Below the pieces are notes generated by a model. That model had not been told where the DNA came from, ran no database searches, and saw only the letters and a program-made list of their open reading frames with translations. A DNA stretch of 64,000 bases from Sipunculus nudus (Eukaryota; Annelida; Sipuncula; Golfingiida; Sipunculidae). A program made the position numbers and the translations under genes. Shown piece by piece: positions 17,609-61,074 of this stretch; the stretch's first letter is position 1, and each line of letters starts with the position of its first letter. The stretch spans positions 28,409,729 through 28,473,728 of the forward strand of contig CM049314.1 of assembly GCA_026874595.1 (NCBI GenBank), read 5' to 3'.

Positions 17609-18916
17609 CTATGCGTTTGAACAAAGGTTACAACTGAGAATCAGGGCGGCCGAAGCAAAAAACAGTAAAAATACACCGGATGGACAAAACACAATATCCT
17701 GAATGGTGACTCTGGTTTCCTCAGTACTGCTCCTTGTACTCTCATTCTCGTGACCAGAAACCAAAAGAGTGACATTGAGCTCTTCCTTTGTTATATTATT
17801 CCGAGATACGCACGTGTAATTGCCGTGAGCAGATTCTTCAAATCTTGACAAATAGGTGAACCCAGATTCATCCACATCTGGATTTACGGACCATTCTTTC
17901 TTTCCAGATTTGTGTAATTCCAGAACAGGAGCAGGGTTAGCGAATCCCCAACAGTTAATGTGAGTGCCGTTATAGTCAAGATGTGGAGCAGAGATATTGC
18001 AAAAGCCAAAAATATCAATCAAGTCCAAGGGCATTGGCAGGTTGTTTTCCTCTACACTGGATGTATCAATCACAGTTAGATTTTTACACCCATAGTAACT
18101 GTAACTGATGTTCACGTCTGGTATTAACTGTCCGAGGTGGGTGGGAGAAGAACATTTAAACTGCATCCTACAATTATCCGAGTTATAAAAGGTGTTGTTT
18201 GTAACTAAACAACCACAATGAATGTCATTTTCCATTAAGGTTATGGTCGCATTACATGACTGAAAATAGGGGAGATCATCCAGTTTGTTCGCTGTGAGAT
18301 CAAGCCAATCAAGAGTTTCCGGTAAGATGGCGTTCCTTTCTATCTTCATTATATGATTATGTGAGAGACGCAGTGTGACTAGTCTTGAGATAACGGTGAA
18401 ACGATCTGACATGAAAGCACTTATATGATTGTGACTCAGATCTAAATACTGCAGATTTACCAATCCTGTGAATGTATGAATCTGTAGGTTTGCGAGATTA
18501 TTGTGGCTCAAGGTCAGAATTCTCAAGATTGACAGATTTAGGAAAGCCTCGGTCCCGATATCTGCAATTTTGTTATTATCTATGTACAATTCCTCAAGTT
18601 CACCCAGGTTTAAAAAATGATGCTTAGTAATTCTCGCGATGTAGTTGTATGACATGTACAAGTATCTCGCCGCCATATCCTCAGGAAAGGCACTGATCCC
18701 AAGTGAGCGCACATTACACTCTGACAGGTTTAATGTCTTCATGACAGTCAAATCCTCAAGTATTTCAGAATGAAGTGTCCCGGTCCATGAACTCGATTTA
18801 TTTAAAATGCAATATCCAACAGGTTTACATGCATTTGAGTTACCAAAATGTAGAAAATGTTGTAAAATAAAACATACAGTGGAAAGCACTTTGTGAATGA
18901 TCTTCCTTGTTTCCAT
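17609..18916 (-). CDS. LRR-Ig cell-surface protein, single exon, intact
   Basis: 435 aa and unbroken. A hydrophobic signal peptide occupies about residues 1-29, then an LRR N-cap (C30, C36). About six to seven leucine-rich repeats run from 55 to 216, for example YLDLSHNHIS and TLRLSHNHIM. The LRR C-cap has cysteines at 234, 236, 249 and 255. One Ig domain (about 303-385) pairs C322 with C369 in GNYTCVSRNN. About ten Asn-X-Ser/Thr sites follow the pattern of a heavily glycosylated ectodomain. The C-terminus is hydrophobic (412-428) with only a few residues after it, so it is either a transmembrane segment with almost no cytoplasmic tail or a GPI-anchor signal. The start sits in a strong Kozak context (GCCATGG). 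Proteins of this build in invertebrates act in adhesion, signalling or immunity; which applies here is unknown. Three broken relatives lie in this window. Confidence 0.92.
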   Translation of the reverse strand: METRKIIHKVLSTVCFILQHFLHFGNSNACKPVGYCILNKSSSWTGTLHSEILEDLTVMKTLNLSECNVRSLGISAFPEDMAARYLYMSYNYIARITKHHFLNLGELEELYIDNNKIADIGTEAFLNLSILRILTLSHNNLANLQIHTFTGLVNLQYLDLSHNHISAFMSDRFTVISRLVTLRLSHNHIMKIERNAILPETLDWLDLTANKLDDLPYFQSCNATITLMENDIHCGCLVTNNTFYNSDNCRMQFKCSSPTHLGQLIPDVNISYSYYGCKNLTVIDTSSVEENNLPMPLDLIDIFGFCNISAPHLDYNGTHINCWGFANPAPVLELHKSGKKEWSVNPDVDESGFTYLSRFEESAHGNYTCVSRNNITKEELNVTLLVSGHENESTRSSTEETRVTIQDIVFCPSGVFLLFFASAALILSCNLCSNA

Positions 18917-20817
18917 GGCGAGCTGTTATGAATCAACTGGCAAAAATATCAGGCCGCCAAGTGTACTGGATGTTTACCGCTTGTTTAGGACCGCATCTAT
19001 TTCAGATATAGCCGCAAAACCAGGAAGTGTTGGTATATATTTAGCCCGTTGGTGTATATTGCAAACTCTCTGTCGATATTTATGCAATTTACCTTGTAGT
19101 TGTTCTGTGTTTTATTTAGGTCAGCTGACAGAAAGTGATTGCGCTCACTCTTTGTCCATAGTATCTATGGCTTTCTGTCTGTTCGGCAGTCCCTTAACAA
19201 GGCACCATTTGAGTTACTGAGAACACATCCTGTACATATATTGCATACTGAGTACATCACTACGACATATATTCCTTGAGTTAAAGAAAACTTAGGTTAC
19301 AGCATCTCATAATTTGAGAATCTTGTTAATAAAAATATTCACAAAAGTACTCTGGAGCAAAGGACAGATTGGAGACTAATCGAAAAAAAAATATTTAAAA
19401 CTGAAATGAATTCGAATATTTGGAGGTTGATTTTGTTCAACATGGAACCCATGACATTTTAAATCTTGTATATTTGTTCCTCTCATTTGATATACCAGTT
19501 GTGTCAATGGTTCCCTAGAGAAGTAACATTCGTGCGCTTTGAAAAATAAGTTCTAATCATATTTATGCACAATCTGAACAAAATTGGTACAACCAGTTCT
19601 TGAAACATGTTTATGGTCTCGTGTACTGTAAAAACGAGCATTTAAAGTGATCAATAGGATTCAGATAGGATCTACAAAAATAACCTTTTTCTATAGGCTA
19701 AACCCTGTCAAATTTGGTTAAAGAAGGTAAAAGATAAAGGTAATTTTTGCGTGGTCCCTAGTGTGTCACATTGACATACATAAAATAGGAACTATCAGGT
19801 CCTGATTCAAAATTCCCCGCACGAGCAACAAGAACTAAGACGACTCCACAACTCGTTTACCAGCAGGATGATAACACAGGTAAAAAAGCATGTACGAAAA
19901 AAAACTGAAAGAAGCAGGAACACAAAACCGGGTAACCGGAAACTGGTTTTTCCTCCACATCCTTCCTTTTTTTAAGTAGAGACATTACTGCTTAAATAAA
20001 TCAACTAAATTACTTTGACGTAATCAAAAGATAATTTAGCTAACCTTAGAAAACAAAGCTGGTTGAATCTTCGCTGTGACCACTAGACTCGCAGTGATCA
20101 GAGTCCAGTGTACGCACATTACAGTCTAGGTGATTCCGAGTAATGTAACAAATACAGATGTATATCAAATAAGATACCCTCTTTGATATCAGACTTACAC
20201 AATAATTTTCATGTGTTAGTTATATGGCAATTCAAACGGCTGCAAGACTTGAAGGTTGATTTGCGGCGTCACCATCAGGTGTCGCTGGTTGTGCAATAGA
20301 TCTTTTCGGTTCCACTCTGAGAAGTAAAATATCGTGTTCTCACAATGGAACACCTTAAGGCCCTTGTGTACGCGATGGCGGCGGTATTAACCATCGTTCT
20401 GGTCTTCAATGCGGTGTAATTACTATCAAACCACTTTCCTAGTATCAATCTCTTCCCACTTAGAAGTTAAATATATGGTCTGACCGGAACACAATTTTGG
20501 CAAAATTCTTGACCTTTTATCATAATACATCTTCACACTAGCCTTATGCTTTGCCCGTTTAACATTTGCATTGTCGTTTTGTGTATGTTTCTATTGCAGC
20601 ATTAGAATGAGCCATCGGGTTGGTTCATTGTCTTATCAAAGGGAGTTTCTCAGTTCAAGCAGTGCTTCTGCTTCCTCTTTGCCATCAGCTATGGTTTTAA
20701 CATAATGTGCTTCACTACCTTAACACCTACCTAATCATTTCCATTGGCACAGTGATGTTCTTGCGATGGCATCCCATGTGATGATTCCTTATTTGTTCAC
20801 GAACTGCTATAATTCAT
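18917..20817. other. non-coding interval, includes upstream region of the LRR-Ig gene
   Basis: The promoter of the minus-strand LRR-Ig gene must lie at the left of this interval, but no TATA box at a convincing distance was identified. The open frame 18897-19220 (plus) overlaps the gene start in antisense and has no domain. Nothing else recognised. Confidence 0.45.
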
Positions 20818-40545: not shown

Positions 40546-40896
40546 TTACAAAATGCCGCTTCGCCATGGAAGCGTAAGGGCCAGGTGGATTTTCCCCGAG
40601 GTTGTTACCCCAGAATAGAAAACTTGAGATTTTGTAAATGTATGAACCTTGGTTTTGAAATCTCTAATTATGATGTTCCTGTCTGCCGTCCAGCAGTCGT
40701 TGATGAGACTTCGTTTCAGTTCCCTAGAAATTTTGAACATTTCCTGGCGGGTCTTTGTAAGATCTTCATTGATAAATGTCTTGCTATTTTCATCCCCGGC
40801 CACTTTCAGTTTATTTTTTGCTCTGTAAATGTTTGCTTTTGTACGATAAGATACAAATTTCACTAGGGTGGGTCTTGGTTTGCTAGAAGTCGAGAT
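40546..40896 (-). pseudogene. LINE ORF1-like RNA-binding protein fragment
   Basis: The minus strand is open from about 40896. It reads KPRPTLVKFVSYRTKANIYR, AKNKLK, TFINEDLTKTRQEMFKISRE, LKRSLINDCWTADRNIIIRD and FKTKVHTF. This matches the RRM-plus-C-terminal region of ORF1 proteins found with L1/jockey-type LINEs in marine invertebrates (pattern recalled, not searched). In orientation it lies upstream of the minus-strand L1-like ORF2 and could be its ORF1. Its upstream end abuts the oppositely oriented RT at about 40870-40900, so it was cut there. No start codon of its own can be assigned. Confidence 0.6.
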
Positions 40897-42690
40897 AGAG
40901 ACTTATGGACCGAAGTAAAGAAGATGAAGTCAGGTGGCCCTTCACAGACCAGGACTGTTGATAATAAATTTACTAGTACAGAAATTGCAAATCACTTCGG
41001 GGAAAAATACAGACACGTATATAATAGCCTTCCAGATAAAGCGGAAAAACTTAATATTATTGTTAATCAGGCAATCAAAAACATATCACCAAAGAATACT
41101 CTCAAGATTAGTGTATCCGACGTTAGGATGGCTGTAAATCATTTTAAAATTGGTAAATCTGACGGAAGATCGATTCTACAGTCTGACAATATCATTAGTG
41201 GAACACACCGTTGGTTTGTATATATATATATATCAATTTTATTTCATTTTATAATTTTACATGGACATGTCCCAGCAGATATGAATACTTACGTAATTAT
41301 ACCTATACCGAAAGACCCAAGAGGTGACCTTACCTGCAATGATAACTACAGGGGTATTTCATTGACAAGTTGTTTCAGCAAACTACTTGATAGTGTTATT
41401 ATTAAGAAAAATGTAGATAAACTTGGCTCTTCTCCACTGCAATATGCTTTTAAGAAGGGGCATTCGACTAACATGTGCACAGTACTGCTGAAGGAGGTTA
41501 TTTCACATTACATATGGAACGGGTCATCAGTTTACAGTTGTTTTGTTGATGCGTCACGCGCTTTTGACAGAATTAATATTCCAAAGTTGTTTCATTTACT
41601 CATGAAACGCAATGTTTCACCTACTGTCATTAGAATACTAGCAGATATCTACCAGAGACCTGTTATTAAGACAAAATGGAATGATGTTGAATCTGAACAG
41701 TTTGGTGCTAATAATGATGTACGCAAAAGGGGGTGTATTATCCCCTCTTCTGTTTAATATTTATATGGACGAGCTTTTAAAACGTCTGACAAATAAGGAA
41801 ATAGGATGTTATATTGGAAATTATTTTGCTGGTGCTGTTGGCTATGCGGACGATCTTACGCTCATATGTCCGACTCGGACGGGGCTTTAACAGATTGTTA
41901 AAGAAAATGAAATGTTTGCTGAAGAATTTGATATGTTATATAACGCAAAGAAAACAAAATGTGTTAATTTTAACAGGGTGTATCCAGCTAGATCAGATAA
42001 AATCGTTTTAAATGGTGTAGCCCTAGAATGGCAGGATTCTGTACAGTACTTGGGAATACAGTTAATCGGAACTTGTCAGATAACAATGACGTCTTCGGTA
42101 AAAGAGTCAAATTTATTGCAAGCTTTAACACCTTAACGGCGCATTTCGGATGTCTGTCTAGCAAGGTTAAGAACGGGCTATTTCACTCTTATTGTTGTTC
42201 CTTTTACGGCAGTCAAATCATGTTATTAAAGCATAAGTCAATTGATCGATTAAGTACATCATATAATAAGGCTTTGCGTCACCTATGGCACTTGCCATAT
42301 AACTCGCACAAGAATATTGTACATGGATTGGCGGGCTCTCCGGCTCTGATAAATATAATCAGCTCACGCTTTATAAATTTATTTCTGAACATGCAGGATG
42401 TTGCAAATGACTTTTCTGACAAAGAGAGCTCATTATACATCAATCGGTGTACTTGGAGGCAACTTACGATATCTGAAAGTCAGATGCACAACCATGGGAT
42501 ACAACGCGACATTAGAAATATAAAGATACTTAAGAGAAAGTTGATGATGGTATCAACATCCATTAACATAGATTTAATGTCAGAATTGATAGAATGCAAA
42601 GATGGGATATGTACCTCGCATTTGACCTCCCATGAGGTTAAAACGCTAATTGATTTATTATCATCCGATTTTGTAATAGGTACGGACTGA
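40866..42690 (+). pseudogene. LINE reverse transcriptase, 5'-truncated, second family (broken)
   Basis: It starts in mid-protein (DRDLWTEVKKM) without endonuclease. RT motifs appear in order: NHFKIGKSDG, IIPIPKDPRGD with NYRGISLTSCFSKLLD, QYAFKKGHST, SCFVDASRAFDRIN (palm motif A, about 41542-41574), GGVLSPLLFNIYMDEL (41731-41780) and the catalytic YADD at 41843-41854. The C-terminal part has VNRNLSDNNDVFGKRV, SYCCSFYGSQ and LRHLWHLPYNSHK and ends at a stop at 42688-42690. A frameshift lies in the A/G run at 41721-41734, a TAA at 41888-41890 and another frame change near 42060-42090. The family resembles Jockey/I-group LINEs; the exact clade is not decided. AATAAA (42781-42786) is followed at once by (TA)n, so the 3' end is probably complete. 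Confidence 0.85.
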
Positions 42691-48091: not shown

Positions 48092-49401
48092 ATGGATAAG
48101 TGGAAGTTGCTCTGTACAGTGTATTTCAAATTTTTGCTAGTATTCAACCATTTTTCAGAAGTCACTAACCGGTATGCGTGTGAAAGTAAAGATAGCTGCC
48201 TTTTAAACAGTATGCCAGGATGGATTTGAGTACTAAATGTTGAGCTTTTGGAACCCCTGGCGGTGCTGACAACACTGAACCTGTCGAACTGTAGTGTGTT
48301 CTCACTTGGAACAAATGCGTTTTCGGAGGAGGTATCGGTAAAATACATGCATCTGTCTTCAAATTATATTGAAAAAATCGCCAAAGGACAACTGCTTAAA
48401 CTTAGTACACTTCATGAGTTGTATATGGACAGGAATAAAATAAAGAATATCGAGCTGGGAGCATTTCAAAAGCTGACAGTATTATCAATTTTGGATCTGA
48501 GTCACAACAATCTAACGGTCTTGTTACATGAGATATTTAATGGATTGATAAATCTGCTGTACCTAAATCTGGGTCATAATTATTTGACTTATTTTACATC
48601 TGATTATTTCAACGTATTGCCAAAACTGGCCACGCTTCGTCTCTCATATAACAATATAATGGAGGTAGAAACTGGCAGCTTACCGGACACTCTTGATTTG
48701 CTTGATCTCACAGCGAACAAACTGCGTGATCTCCCCTATTTTCAGAATGTAATGTGACCCTCACCCTGATGGATAATAATATTCGCTGTGATTGTTTAGT
48801 TCCAAACAGCATTTTTCATAACTCGGATCCATGTAGGATGCAGTTTAAATGTTCTTCGCCCATGCATCTAGGACAGGTAATACCAGTCGTGAATATCACT
48901 TACAATTACTACGGGTGTAAGAATACATGTATGATTAATGCATCTAGTGTAGAGGTAAACGACCTTCTAACGACCTCGGACTTGATTAATTATATTGGTT
49001 TCTGCAACATCTCTGCTCCACACCTTGACTTCAATGGCACTCACATTAAGTGTTGGGGATTTGCTAACCCGGCTTCTGAATTGAAACTGTACAAATCTGG
49101 AAAGCTGGAATGGTCTGAAGCTCCAAGTATTGATGCACCCGGTGTCATGTATTTGTCAAGTTTGACAAATTCTGTCCAGGGTAACTATACTTGTGTAGCC
49201 AGTAATAATATCACCTTGGTGGCATTAAGTGTCACAATTGCCATCAGAAAGGACACCGTATACATCATGATAAATGATACGAACCAGTCTGTTACTAGCA
49301 CTGTACATTCAGTTATTATCATGGGAACTATGTGTGTAATTGGGACGAGTAACCTCTGTTTAAAATCACTTGTCCATTTTATTAAATATATTGAATTGTG
49401 A
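48092..49401 (+). pseudogene. LRR-Ig receptor, nearly full length, one stop and one frameshift
   Basis: ATG at 48092 (MDKWKLLCTVYFKF) starts a signal peptide like that of the intact gene at 17609-18916. The LRR N-cap cysteines follow, then a TGA at 48227-48229 (codon 46). The same frame continues with about six LRRs (LSILDLSHNNLTVLL, NLLYLNLGHNYLTYF, TLRLSYNNI) to LDLTANKLRDLPYFQ. At about 48747 one base is missing relative to the intact paralogue. The next frame gives the LRR C-cap (IRCDCL and CRMQFKCSSP), the Ig domain (CNISAPHLDFNGTHIKC, GNYTCVASNN) and a C-terminal hydrophobic segment ending at 49401. AATAAA follows at 49462-49467. Domain order and length match the intact gene. With only two lesions it is either a recent pseudogene or has sequence errors. 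Confidence 0.9.
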
Positions 49402-58679: not shown

Positions 58680-59590
58680 CTAACCCAACAAAAGCCAAAC
58701 ATACGTGAACCTCAAATCCAGCCACCCACCAGGAATAGTCAGGAACATACCAGAATCGATAAACAACAGACTCTTCGAAATTGTGTGTGACGAGGAAAAC
58801 TTCACCAAAGCTTTATACCAAAAGTCTCTCAGAAGAAGTGGATTTAAATGCCAACTGCAATTTAAAGTCAATTCAGATCACCAAAATCAACGAAAGAGAA
58901 AACGACGCATAAACATTACCTGGTACAACCCACCCTTCTGCAAAAATGTCGCCACCAAGAAAGGACAATCCTTCTTAAAAATCCTGGACGAAGAATTTCC
59001 TAAAAAAAACATGTTTTCCACAAAATTTTCAATTGTAATACAGTCAAAAGAAGCTATATTTGTATGCCCAACCTGAAACAACACCTAGAAGGCCATAACA
59101 AACGTATCATCTCCAGGAAAAGTACAGTGCCATCTACCGGATGTAATTGCAGGAATCCCCGTGAATGACCAACACCTGGACAATGCCTTACAAAATTTGT
59201 CATAATTAAATCAAGCCACAGTCAGTACAGAAAACGGAAAAGCGGATGAAAGGTACAGCGGTCTCACGGAAAACTCCTTCAAAACAAGATACAACAACCA
59301 TAAAACATCTTTCAGACACCCGAAACAAAGGAAACGTACGGAACTCAGCAAATACATTTGGGAGCTAAAACATAACAACGTCAAATTTGAAATACAGTGG
59401 AAAATACTCAGAAAAGCCAAAGCCACCCCTGAAACTATCAGATGTAATGTATGCCCGTGGGAGAAATATTTCACTTTGTGTAAACAAAACATGGCCACGC
59501 TTAACCAAAGCGATGAACTTGTAACAAGTTGTAGACACGCTAACAAATTCCTCGTACGTAAACTCAACACAAAGAGTAATCCAGATTAGG
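58680..59590 (+). pseudogene. Penelope-like element, 3' coding part with GIY-YIG endonuclease (broken)
   Basis: An open stretch (58705-59076) reads SSHPPGIVRNIPESINNRLF, ITWYNPPFCKNVATKKGQSF and LKILDEEFPKKN, a segment known between the RT and endonuclease of Penelope-like elements. After a frame change come SYICMPNLKQHLEGHNKR and the cysteine-rich linker (CNCRNP, a stop, then GQCLTKFV; about 59050-59200). A second frame change gives the GIY-YIG domain: ERYSGLTENSFKTRYNNHKT, then TELSKYIWELK, WKILRKAKA, CNVCPWEKYFTLC and ELVTSCRHANKFL (about 59240-59560). The YIG strand is YSG here. RT is absent. One stop and at least two frameshifts show it cannot act. The (TA)n and hammerhead-bearing region follows within 200 bp. 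Confidence 0.88.
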
Positions 59591-59753
59591 CACGTTGTAC
59601 AAATCCACGTTGTAATAATCACAAACACGCTCTAGTGAACAACAAGTTGTTAAATTACAACCCCTCCAGTCATACTGTTCTGAAGAGTGCCGTAAAAACG
59701 GTACAAAACTAATAAGTCAACACGATGTTTACAATCGTTTGATTCCTTAAACA

Positions 59754-59754
<1 letters not shown>
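59591..59754 (+). other. 3' non-coding region of the Penelope-like element
   Basis: Joins the endonuclease stop (TAG at 59587-59589) to the first (TA)n tract. A TGTTCTGAAGAGTGCCGTAA word is unassigned. No gene. Confidence 0.5.
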
Positions 59755-59791
<37 letters not shown>

Positions 59792-59867
59792 ATACGCTCT
59801 CGTTATACCATAGAGCACTTTGCCATCAGTGCATTGCCAACAGCCTAGAAAGAACAAGTGTAAATAC

Positions 59868-59909
<42 letters not shown>

Positions 59910-59966
59910 GGTAGTGTTACCCTCCGATGTAAAGTGCTCTATGGCCTACAAGCTAGGCCAGAGCGG

Positions 59967-60092
59967 TATAACTCTGAATAAAAACCACACTGTTAATTCA
60001 CAACAGACTGTTTCACGGGATGCGACCCGATGATCGGGTCGCATCCCGTGAAACAGTCTGTTGTGAATTAACAGTGTTGTTTTTCTTCAGAG

Positions 60093-60097
<5 letters not shown>
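59967..60097. repeat. 131-bp near-perfect palindrome
   Basis: Centred on the single base 60032. The inner arms 59989-60031 and 60033-60075 are exact inverses (43 bp). The outer arms extend to 59967 and 60097 with only two mismatches in 66 bp. Each arm holds the GAAAC-AGTCTGTTGTGAAT half of the hammerhead unit, reading outward. Confidence 0.97.
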
Positions 60098-60154
<57 letters not shown>

Positions 60155-60226
60155 GTAAAGTTACCTTCCGTTGTTAATTGCTCTATGGGCTACAGACTCC
60201 GCCAGAGAGATATAACACTGAAATAA

Positions 60227-60293
60227 AACAACACTGTAAATTCACGACAGAATGTTTCAGGGGATGCAACCCGATCATCAGGTGAATGTTGTT
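60227..60293 (-). ncRNA. hammerhead ribozyme (type I, short stem III)
   Basis: On the minus strand, stem I strand AUUCAC (60287-60282) is followed by the invariant CUGAUGA (60281-60275), a 16-nt stem-loop II (60274-60259, GGG/CCC with two mispaired positions next to the core), GAAA (60258-60255) and stem III ACA-UUC-UGU (60255-60247). The cleavage triplet GUC is at 60248-60246 and the other stem I strand GUGAAU at 60245-60240. Stem I pairs all six bases, then after a 7-nt bulge a second 6-bp helix forms (60232-60227 with 60288-60293). All core bases expected for self-cleavage after C60246 are present. In the neighbouring palindrome copies stem II is repaired to CGGG/CCCG, so the pairing is supported by variation. 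Activity is not shown; the weak base of stem II may lower it. Confidence 0.85.
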
Positions 60294-60295
60294 AG

Positions 60296-61074
60296 AATGA
60301 AGTGTAGACTCCAAACACGAGTACTTTTCGTATGCAATAACGGTTTATTGTTTTCTGAAGCATGTTTCTCTTAAGCTACCAAGCACATGCGGCCTTAAGA
60401 AAATGGCATTGCATGGCTGCATCTCTTGCATTATATACCTCGAGCAACGAAGAAAGCAATAAGTGGTAGATACATTCTGAAGGTCATGTAAATATTTAGT
60501 GTCGTATTCTCTTGGTGCTAGCTGGTATTTATCTACCGCGGGAAATGGTAAAGCCAATCAATGTAAACTTCAAGCGTCTGGCTAATTTAACATGACCCTG
60601 AATCAGGTACCTCCAGGAATGGCTGGTCAACGCAGAATATACAGGTGTTGTTGTCGTGGGTTGGGTGTATTACCAATTTTGTTTGGCCGGACGTTACAGT
60701 AAAACAGGCAAATATCGTACTTCCAGTGGAAATCAAACATAATACACGATCTGTTGTCCAAGTAAATAAATTACAGTTGAATTGTTGCTTAAACATTGAA
60801 ATTGTCTTACCTGGTTTCCTAAACACTACACTGCCACGTCATGATTCCACGTCAGCTCTTGGCTGCCTGGATCTTAATGTCCAATAAGATAACGTATTTA
60901 CGAAGTGATCGCCACGTGTTAAGTCTGTGTCATATTGTTGAACAAACAAACCTCGCTTGTTGGGCATTGACCCACGTAAATGTGACAGTAGCTTTGTGTT
61001 ATACAAAAATACTTCATCAACATATTTTTAATACCATTTTATTTTCTAATTAATACACCATGCAGATAAATTTG

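Follow-up and report, generated by a model that had tools for sequence, protein, structure and literature searches.

The hammerhead-like motif at 60227-60293 on the minus strand of the analysed window, a stretch of 64,000 nucleotides from the genome of Sipunculus nudus, is probably a decayed ribozyme from the leader of an autonomous Penelope-like retroelement (family H in the following) with two-strand priming on capped, mostly uncut RNA. The copy in the window is itself ordinary; its value lies in the footprints of its family, since about 1,000 exact copies of a leader segment with ends readable to the base constitute a record of the element's insertion. The ends of the copies suggest that most templates were capped and uncut, and that two start sites were used, one per DNA strand.

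Structure of the hammerhead-like motif

The minus strand of 60227-60293 reads AACAACATTCACCTGATGATCGGGTTGCATCCCCTGAAACATTCTGTCGTGAATTTACAGTGTTGTT and has the layout AACAAC-ATTCAC-CTGATGA-TCGGGTTGCATCCCCT-GAA-ACATTCTGT-C^GTGAAT-TTACAGT-GTTGTT (cut at ^); 60293-60275 on this strand is AACAACATTCACCTGATGA. A preliminary description of this DNA, made from its letters, had placed CUGAUGA, GAAA and a GUC cleavage triplet in the correct order on the minus strand with cleavage after the base at 60246, and had proposed a fully paired 6-bp stem I, a 3-bp stem III and a 6-bp outer helix. The core elements were found in place (CUGAUGA from 60281; H17 is 60246), both stems (stem I as ATTCAC/GTGAAT) were recovered by the structural descriptor and by segment pairing, and the outer helix (AACAAC/GTTGTT) beyond a one-sided 7-nt bulge can be read directly from the sequence. 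Assessed as a type I hammerhead, the window copy possesses the core CUGANGA and GAA, the pair 15.1-16.1, an H17 other than G, and pairing in stem I (6 bp) and stem III (3 bp). Stem II is not paired from its base: U.U at 10.1-11.1 and C.C at 10.2-11.2 precede the 3 bp GGG/CCC that alone are kept. Stem II is absent from the preliminary description, and the term "structurally complete" used there had to be dropped because of these two mismatches and of the missing match to a covariance model.

At the gathering threshold, the Rfam search of the whole window gave no match; among the 53 Rfam matches at E<=10 in the 801 bases of 59700-60500, there was no hammerhead. The same applied to four family H copies at E<=10 and, at the gathering threshold, to four loci of three other, better-paired families. 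The sub-threshold matches comprised hairpin and (TA)n models only, and when the motif and related copies were folded by free energy, the hammerhead stems were recovered only in part. The window copy is, as judged from these data, a decayed relative of the hammerhead and is not classed as a working one.

Genomic context

Rightward from approximately 59867, the (TA)19 tract, a family H head-to-head pair (59908-60093), the (TA)29 tract and the motif's copy follow one another (Table 1), an order that we read as a stack of insertions with (TA)n in common. The tracts correspond to the (TA)n reported beside the motif in the preliminary description. At a distance of about 570 kb there is a locus nearly identical to the motif's copy, with 98% identity across 700 bp of upstream sequence.

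Table 1. Features of the insertion cluster around the hammerhead-like motif (positions in the window).
Feature	Position	Strand	Remark
Family W Penelope-like remnant	58684..59867	+	broken ORF, leader, tail
Second hammerhead remnant, family W, sense to coding remnant	59662..59735	+	G12 -> A
(TA)19 tract, outer side of left arm	59869..59906		
Left arm of family H pair (L041), with tail	59908..60032	-	ends at (TA)19
Right arm of family H head-to-head pair (L041), without tail	60033..60093	+	ends at (TA)n; incomplete hammerhead, breaking off at GATCGGG
(TA)29 between motif's copy and inverted pair	60094..60151		
Family H leader copy holding the motif, with tail	60152..60298	-	family match along length; 5' limit approximate; ends in (TA)n
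Hammerhead-like motif, family H	60227..60293	-	core intact, stem II base mismatched

The nearby GIY-YIG coding remnant was found as described, ending at 59586-59589; its ORF pieces cover 58684-59073 and 59206-59586, with leader and tail reaching approximately 59867. This remnant represents another Penelope family (family W): its best non-self matches are 75-81% identical, compared with 38% for the family H ORF, several of its best relatives stand in tandem arrays with a period of 2,427 bp, and the window's family W copy is identical to locus L140 at 365 of 413 aligned positions. The interpretation as a Penelope-type hammerhead relic in a copy separate from the coding remnant is supported. For the opposite orientation, the preliminary description had considered a separate inverted copy or a non-autonomous relative; the latter is not required, since insertions of the element's own leader explain the short copies. 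Because the intact family H units carry the ribozyme in sense, its antisense placement beside the coding remnant is coincidental. The hammerhead remnant of family W, which had been missed in the preliminary description, is presumably dead through the change of G12 to A.

Elsewhere in the window, leucine-rich repeats and immunoglobulin-like domains mark two probable genes of the host (17609-18925, minus strand; 48230-49401, plus strand), and a reverse transcriptase fragment of another retroelement (40867-41757, plus strand; RVT_1, E 3.7e-10) was observed.

The parent element

Genome-wide, about 1,000 exact copies of the 35-mer just after the cut site were counted (1,019 in 1.43 Gb); the first family searches had given 1,236 and 2,045 candidates, of which 40 of each were scored. 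Intact family H units are approximately 2,924 bp long and contain a 713-aa ORF preceded by the hammerhead in sense; the array at C1:55954000-55967100 comprises four full units with identical 713-aa ORFs and the hammerhead in sense before each, and at L061 the motif is preceded, on its own strand, by a fragment of a GIY-YIG-type ORF. In the 713-aa ORF, RVT_1 was matched over a part of the frame with an E of 0.0032, under the cut-off; Pfam, NCBIfam and PDB sequence searches returned nothing above the curated cut-off and no GIY-YIG match, while YRDD and VY..YIG motifs were seen by eye. Membership in the Penelope-like elements is indicated by the tandem and head-to-head repeats with an optional tail and by the AT-rich targets ((TA)n or AT-rich flanks) with a short target duplication; non-TA duplications of 12-13 bp were recognized only at L071 and L044, as the simple sequence of most flanks leaves no way to judge.

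Ends of the copies

Family H copies terminate at one of two exact 3' points: q89 lies ahead of a conserved stem-loop, the tail, and q149 behind it; beyond either end follows (TA)n or other AT-rich DNA. The 40 scored matches to a query starting at the cut site were all identical and consisted of 11 internal units, nine 3' ends of longer copies and 20 short copies. Of the latter, about 14 have their first base at position 2, 3 or 4, and not one starts at the cut; these starts were read by eye (in L070 and L054, the script values are distorted by a deletion and tolerated mismatches). The 96 arms of the 48 readable head-to-head pairs start at position 1 in 19 cases (many extend upstream), at positions 2-4 in 33, at 5-50 in 41 and at 51, 54 (L016) and 58 in one case each; with 41 of 96 arms at positions 5-50, not every copy starts at A+1.

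In the genome as a whole, 857 copies with the exact leader start have the element's own C in front of it, and 267 have A, G or T. G accounts for 150 of these 267; among them are pairs, in which this base is not independent, as well as copies that merely carry a substitution. The ribozyme cut is crossed by 955 of 1,019 copies. Five exceptions occurred among the 100 matches listed: L165 starts exactly at the cut, and two others are a 1-nt deletion and a substitution; a small duplication is present in L135 and L139. Cut RNA may have served as an occasional template, as in L165 and in the L016 arm at position 54. L135 and L139 (C1:80559465 and C1:98766817), situated 18 Mb apart, have a GGTAAG junction and a TGTTGT duplication in common; their likeness might reflect a copied inverted pair or, alternatively, a regional duplication.

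In 24 single insertions (without L153, whose flank is an element remnant), most of which were found by a search pattern that excluded C, 12 have a T before A+1, each time at a (TA)n edge, while 10 have a G and two an A. The G share of 10/24 exceeds the background of 0.21 (p 0.018), and reaches 10/12 (p 7e-6) if the T cases at (TA)n edges are removed post hoc. Reverse transcriptases add an extra G opposite the cap. Based on this extra G and the few starts at the cut, the templates look to have been capped and mostly uncut.

Tandem arrays

Among the four units of the C1 array there is one substitution, besides differences of a single C in length, whereas the C3 unit differs from one C1 unit by 11 substitutions. 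Where units continue into the element body, C stands before A+1 in 125 and T in one. It is possible, if rather doubtful, that the ribozyme splits the RNA between two fates: capped, uncut linear molecules would give leader-only insertions, each DNA strand being served by a separate reverse transcriptase with a start site of its own on the RNA, and unit-length molecules, released by dimeric hammerheads and circularized, would be converted into the long tandem arrays by rolling-circle reverse transcription. Such a division would account for the low divergence within arrays (1 versus 11 substitutions), for arrays of at least 27 units and for the C before A+1 (125 versus 1). However, unequal crossing-over of DNA or the 5' truncation of long copies might equally account for these observations.

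Several family H arrays deserve mention in their own right. The array at C17:42720108-42796325 holds at least 27 units of about 2.9 kb, and at C12:49442345-49510635 at least nine units on the minus strand face at least 14 on the plus strand. At C1:31948138-31953964 the unit spacing is 2,874 and 2,867 bp, about 50 bp under that elsewhere, and the fetched units L095 and L096 have a private base change in common, as if the units had multiplied from one variant unit.

Head-to-head pairs and the proposed mechanism

Among 61 head-to-head neighbours, 48 had readable 3' ends on both arms and were counted, three flagged as having two tailed arms were set aside, and 10 were unreadable (one end beyond the sequence retrieved, or a different end point). 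Every one of the 48 readable pairs carries the tail on exactly one arm, a count in which tail-less pairs would be under-seen, most pair loci having been found with the tail in the query; three further insertions, pieced together from separate loci, are also one-tailed. As for the pairs set aside, ARR1 consists of inner units, the outer ends of which follow the one-tail rule; L027 combines 97% and 84% copies of different ages; in L034 the first arm continues into the element body and the second is a 49-nt fragment. A tail-free search gave nine pairs with both ends read (L109, L117, L105/L086, L119/L120, ARR1, L089, L084, L055 and L052), all nine of which obey the rule (p 0.002 if tails were random); at least one more pair in that list, C1:26472555/26474009, was read on one side only.

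The single tail per pair suggests priming from both strands: one tailed arm is what would result from priming on two strands at two start sites. According to the mechanism proposed here, transcription would begin at the A of TC-ATTCT, so that the ribozyme would lie within the first 75 nt of the capped RNA. The element's protein would cut both strands of AT-rich DNA, in this genome mostly (TA)n, and each of the broken strands would prime reverse transcription inside the RNA, one before and the other after the tail, and the two cDNAs would be joined head to head. With the RNA ending at the nearby cap, only the leader of approximately 88 or 148 nt would be inserted, giving the many mini-copies, and most templates would escape ribozyme cutting. 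The role of the ribozyme is likely the protein-assisted or dimeric cleavage of tandem-array transcripts.

Self-priming, in which one cDNA folds back and copies itself and which the available part of PMC3846280 proposes for rotifer Penelope elements, is an unlikely origin of the inverted pairs. In its favour are the frequent palindromic junctions and the long C1 insertion, the two arms of which start at nearly one template point. It should, however, leave a tail on both arms or on neither, which is contradicted by all 48 readable pairs, and the arms of L055 (51/1), L058 (37/5) and L059 (40/7) start from clearly different points.

Two-strand priming on the element's own leader also has to be set against the view of the short copies as retrozymes, i.e. 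non-autonomous units spread via small hammerhead-made RNA circles. According to the available part of PMC7229834, animal retrozymes are short, numerous and hammerhead-bearing and occur beside autonomous Penelope elements, and the copies in S. nudus are likewise short, numerous and hammerhead-bearing in a genome with such elements. Nevertheless, this origin is most improbable: the short copies examined are single or inverted and not arranged as short direct tandem repeats, their sequence equals the leader of the autonomous element, and instead of direct tandem repeats of ~170-400 bp with a hammerhead and no ORF, the tandem units measure 2.9 kb and contain an ORF.

The hammerhead lineage across families

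In the 67 family H copies spanning the motif (among 103 match rows), the core positions are nearly invariant. H17 is A in 33, T in 27, C in five and G in two; the other variable sites are one stem III loop, one stem I loop and one outer-helix base. Three further families (W, F50 and F42) have, in the corresponding position before the ORF and before a stem-loop, CUGAYGA and GAA cores with different stems (W: GTGCCGT/ACGGTAC; F50: GTGCA/TGCAC; F42: GTGC/GCAC, in L146). Assessed as type I hammerheads, all three show the core and stems I, II and III, with G-C at 10.1-11.1 in contrast to the U.U at the stem II base of family H; their pairing is a script count on hand-cut segments without a calibrated score, and the stems were compared segment by segment because MAFFT misplaced GAAA between families. 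In two further Penelope families (L144 and L148), no hammerhead core was found within 601 bases each. At approximately 320-500 of L146 (C9:1516537-1517137), a decayed family H leader lies inside the (TA)n of the F42 leader, a case of nested Penelope insertions.

The stem III segment is self-complementary at 8/9 positions in family H and at 10/10 each in the other three families (with a chance of about 0.001 if only the loops are considered), which fits with cleavage as dimers; dimer cleavage of hammerheads is named in the title of Lunse et al. 2017. The cutting as a dimer foreseen for the motif is, in consequence, plausible for the families, whereas the window copy retains only 6/9.

The type I descriptor gave one match in the window on both strands, the site 60227-60293, and one match in total in 200 first-order Markov shuffles; as many as two mismatches were allowed at the base of stem II, a setting loosened post hoc without which this site fails. 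A chance resemblance in AT-rich repetitive DNA, without ribozyme ancestry, would agree with the damaged stem II and the failure of the Rfam hammerhead models, but is barely credible in view of this single match in 200 shuffles, of the core in sense before intact ORFs and of three other families with different stems. The motif is consequently regarded as real and beyond chance.

Comparison with known systems

Hammerheads, tails, inverted pairs and AT-rich targets are already known from Penelope elements. For a strict one-tail rule and for capped, uncut templates no paper was found among the literature surveyed. As far as the minimal type I Penelope hammerheads are characterized in the partial accounts at hand (Cervera and de la Pena 2014; Lunse et al. 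2017), the family H motif resembles them in its type I form with a very short helix III capable of dimer formation, in the unit arrays and in the repeats adjoining a Penelope-type ORF; it differs from them in the U.U at the stem II base, to which the window copy adds a second mismatch, and this base also separates family H from W, F50 and F42 with their G-C.

Axolotl HHR_Amex2, as described in the available part of PMC7229834, likewise combines a short helix III with a U.U mismatch at the helix II base; that hammerhead, however, is located in tandem repeats of ~350 bp (retrozyme) and not in the leader of an autonomous element. The Penelope families of Adineta vaga, according to the sections of PMC3846280 at hand, share with family H the head-to-head arrangement of inverted repeats, one of which bears a short tail, as well as AT-rich target sites with short duplications; in contrast, the tail is there called optional and self-priming is proposed, and those sections make no mention of a hammerhead.

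PAc, the Poseidon element of Anolis (PMC11167929, compared in part), is similar to family H in that the hammerhead is situated just upstream, two internal reverse transcription start sites bound the tail, targets are AT-rich and both strands are used. In PAc, however, the hammerhead contains the beginning of the ORF, and both reverse transcription start sites are inside that ORF, whereas the 713-aa frame of family H opens after the tail and its two sites go one per arm; the portion of the Anolis study considered here reports no strand difference in start site. Within the same portion, the Anolis protein is described to cut and extend both strands and to start at two adjacent internal sites, and two-strand priming at two start sites, as suggested for family H, agrees with this behaviour.
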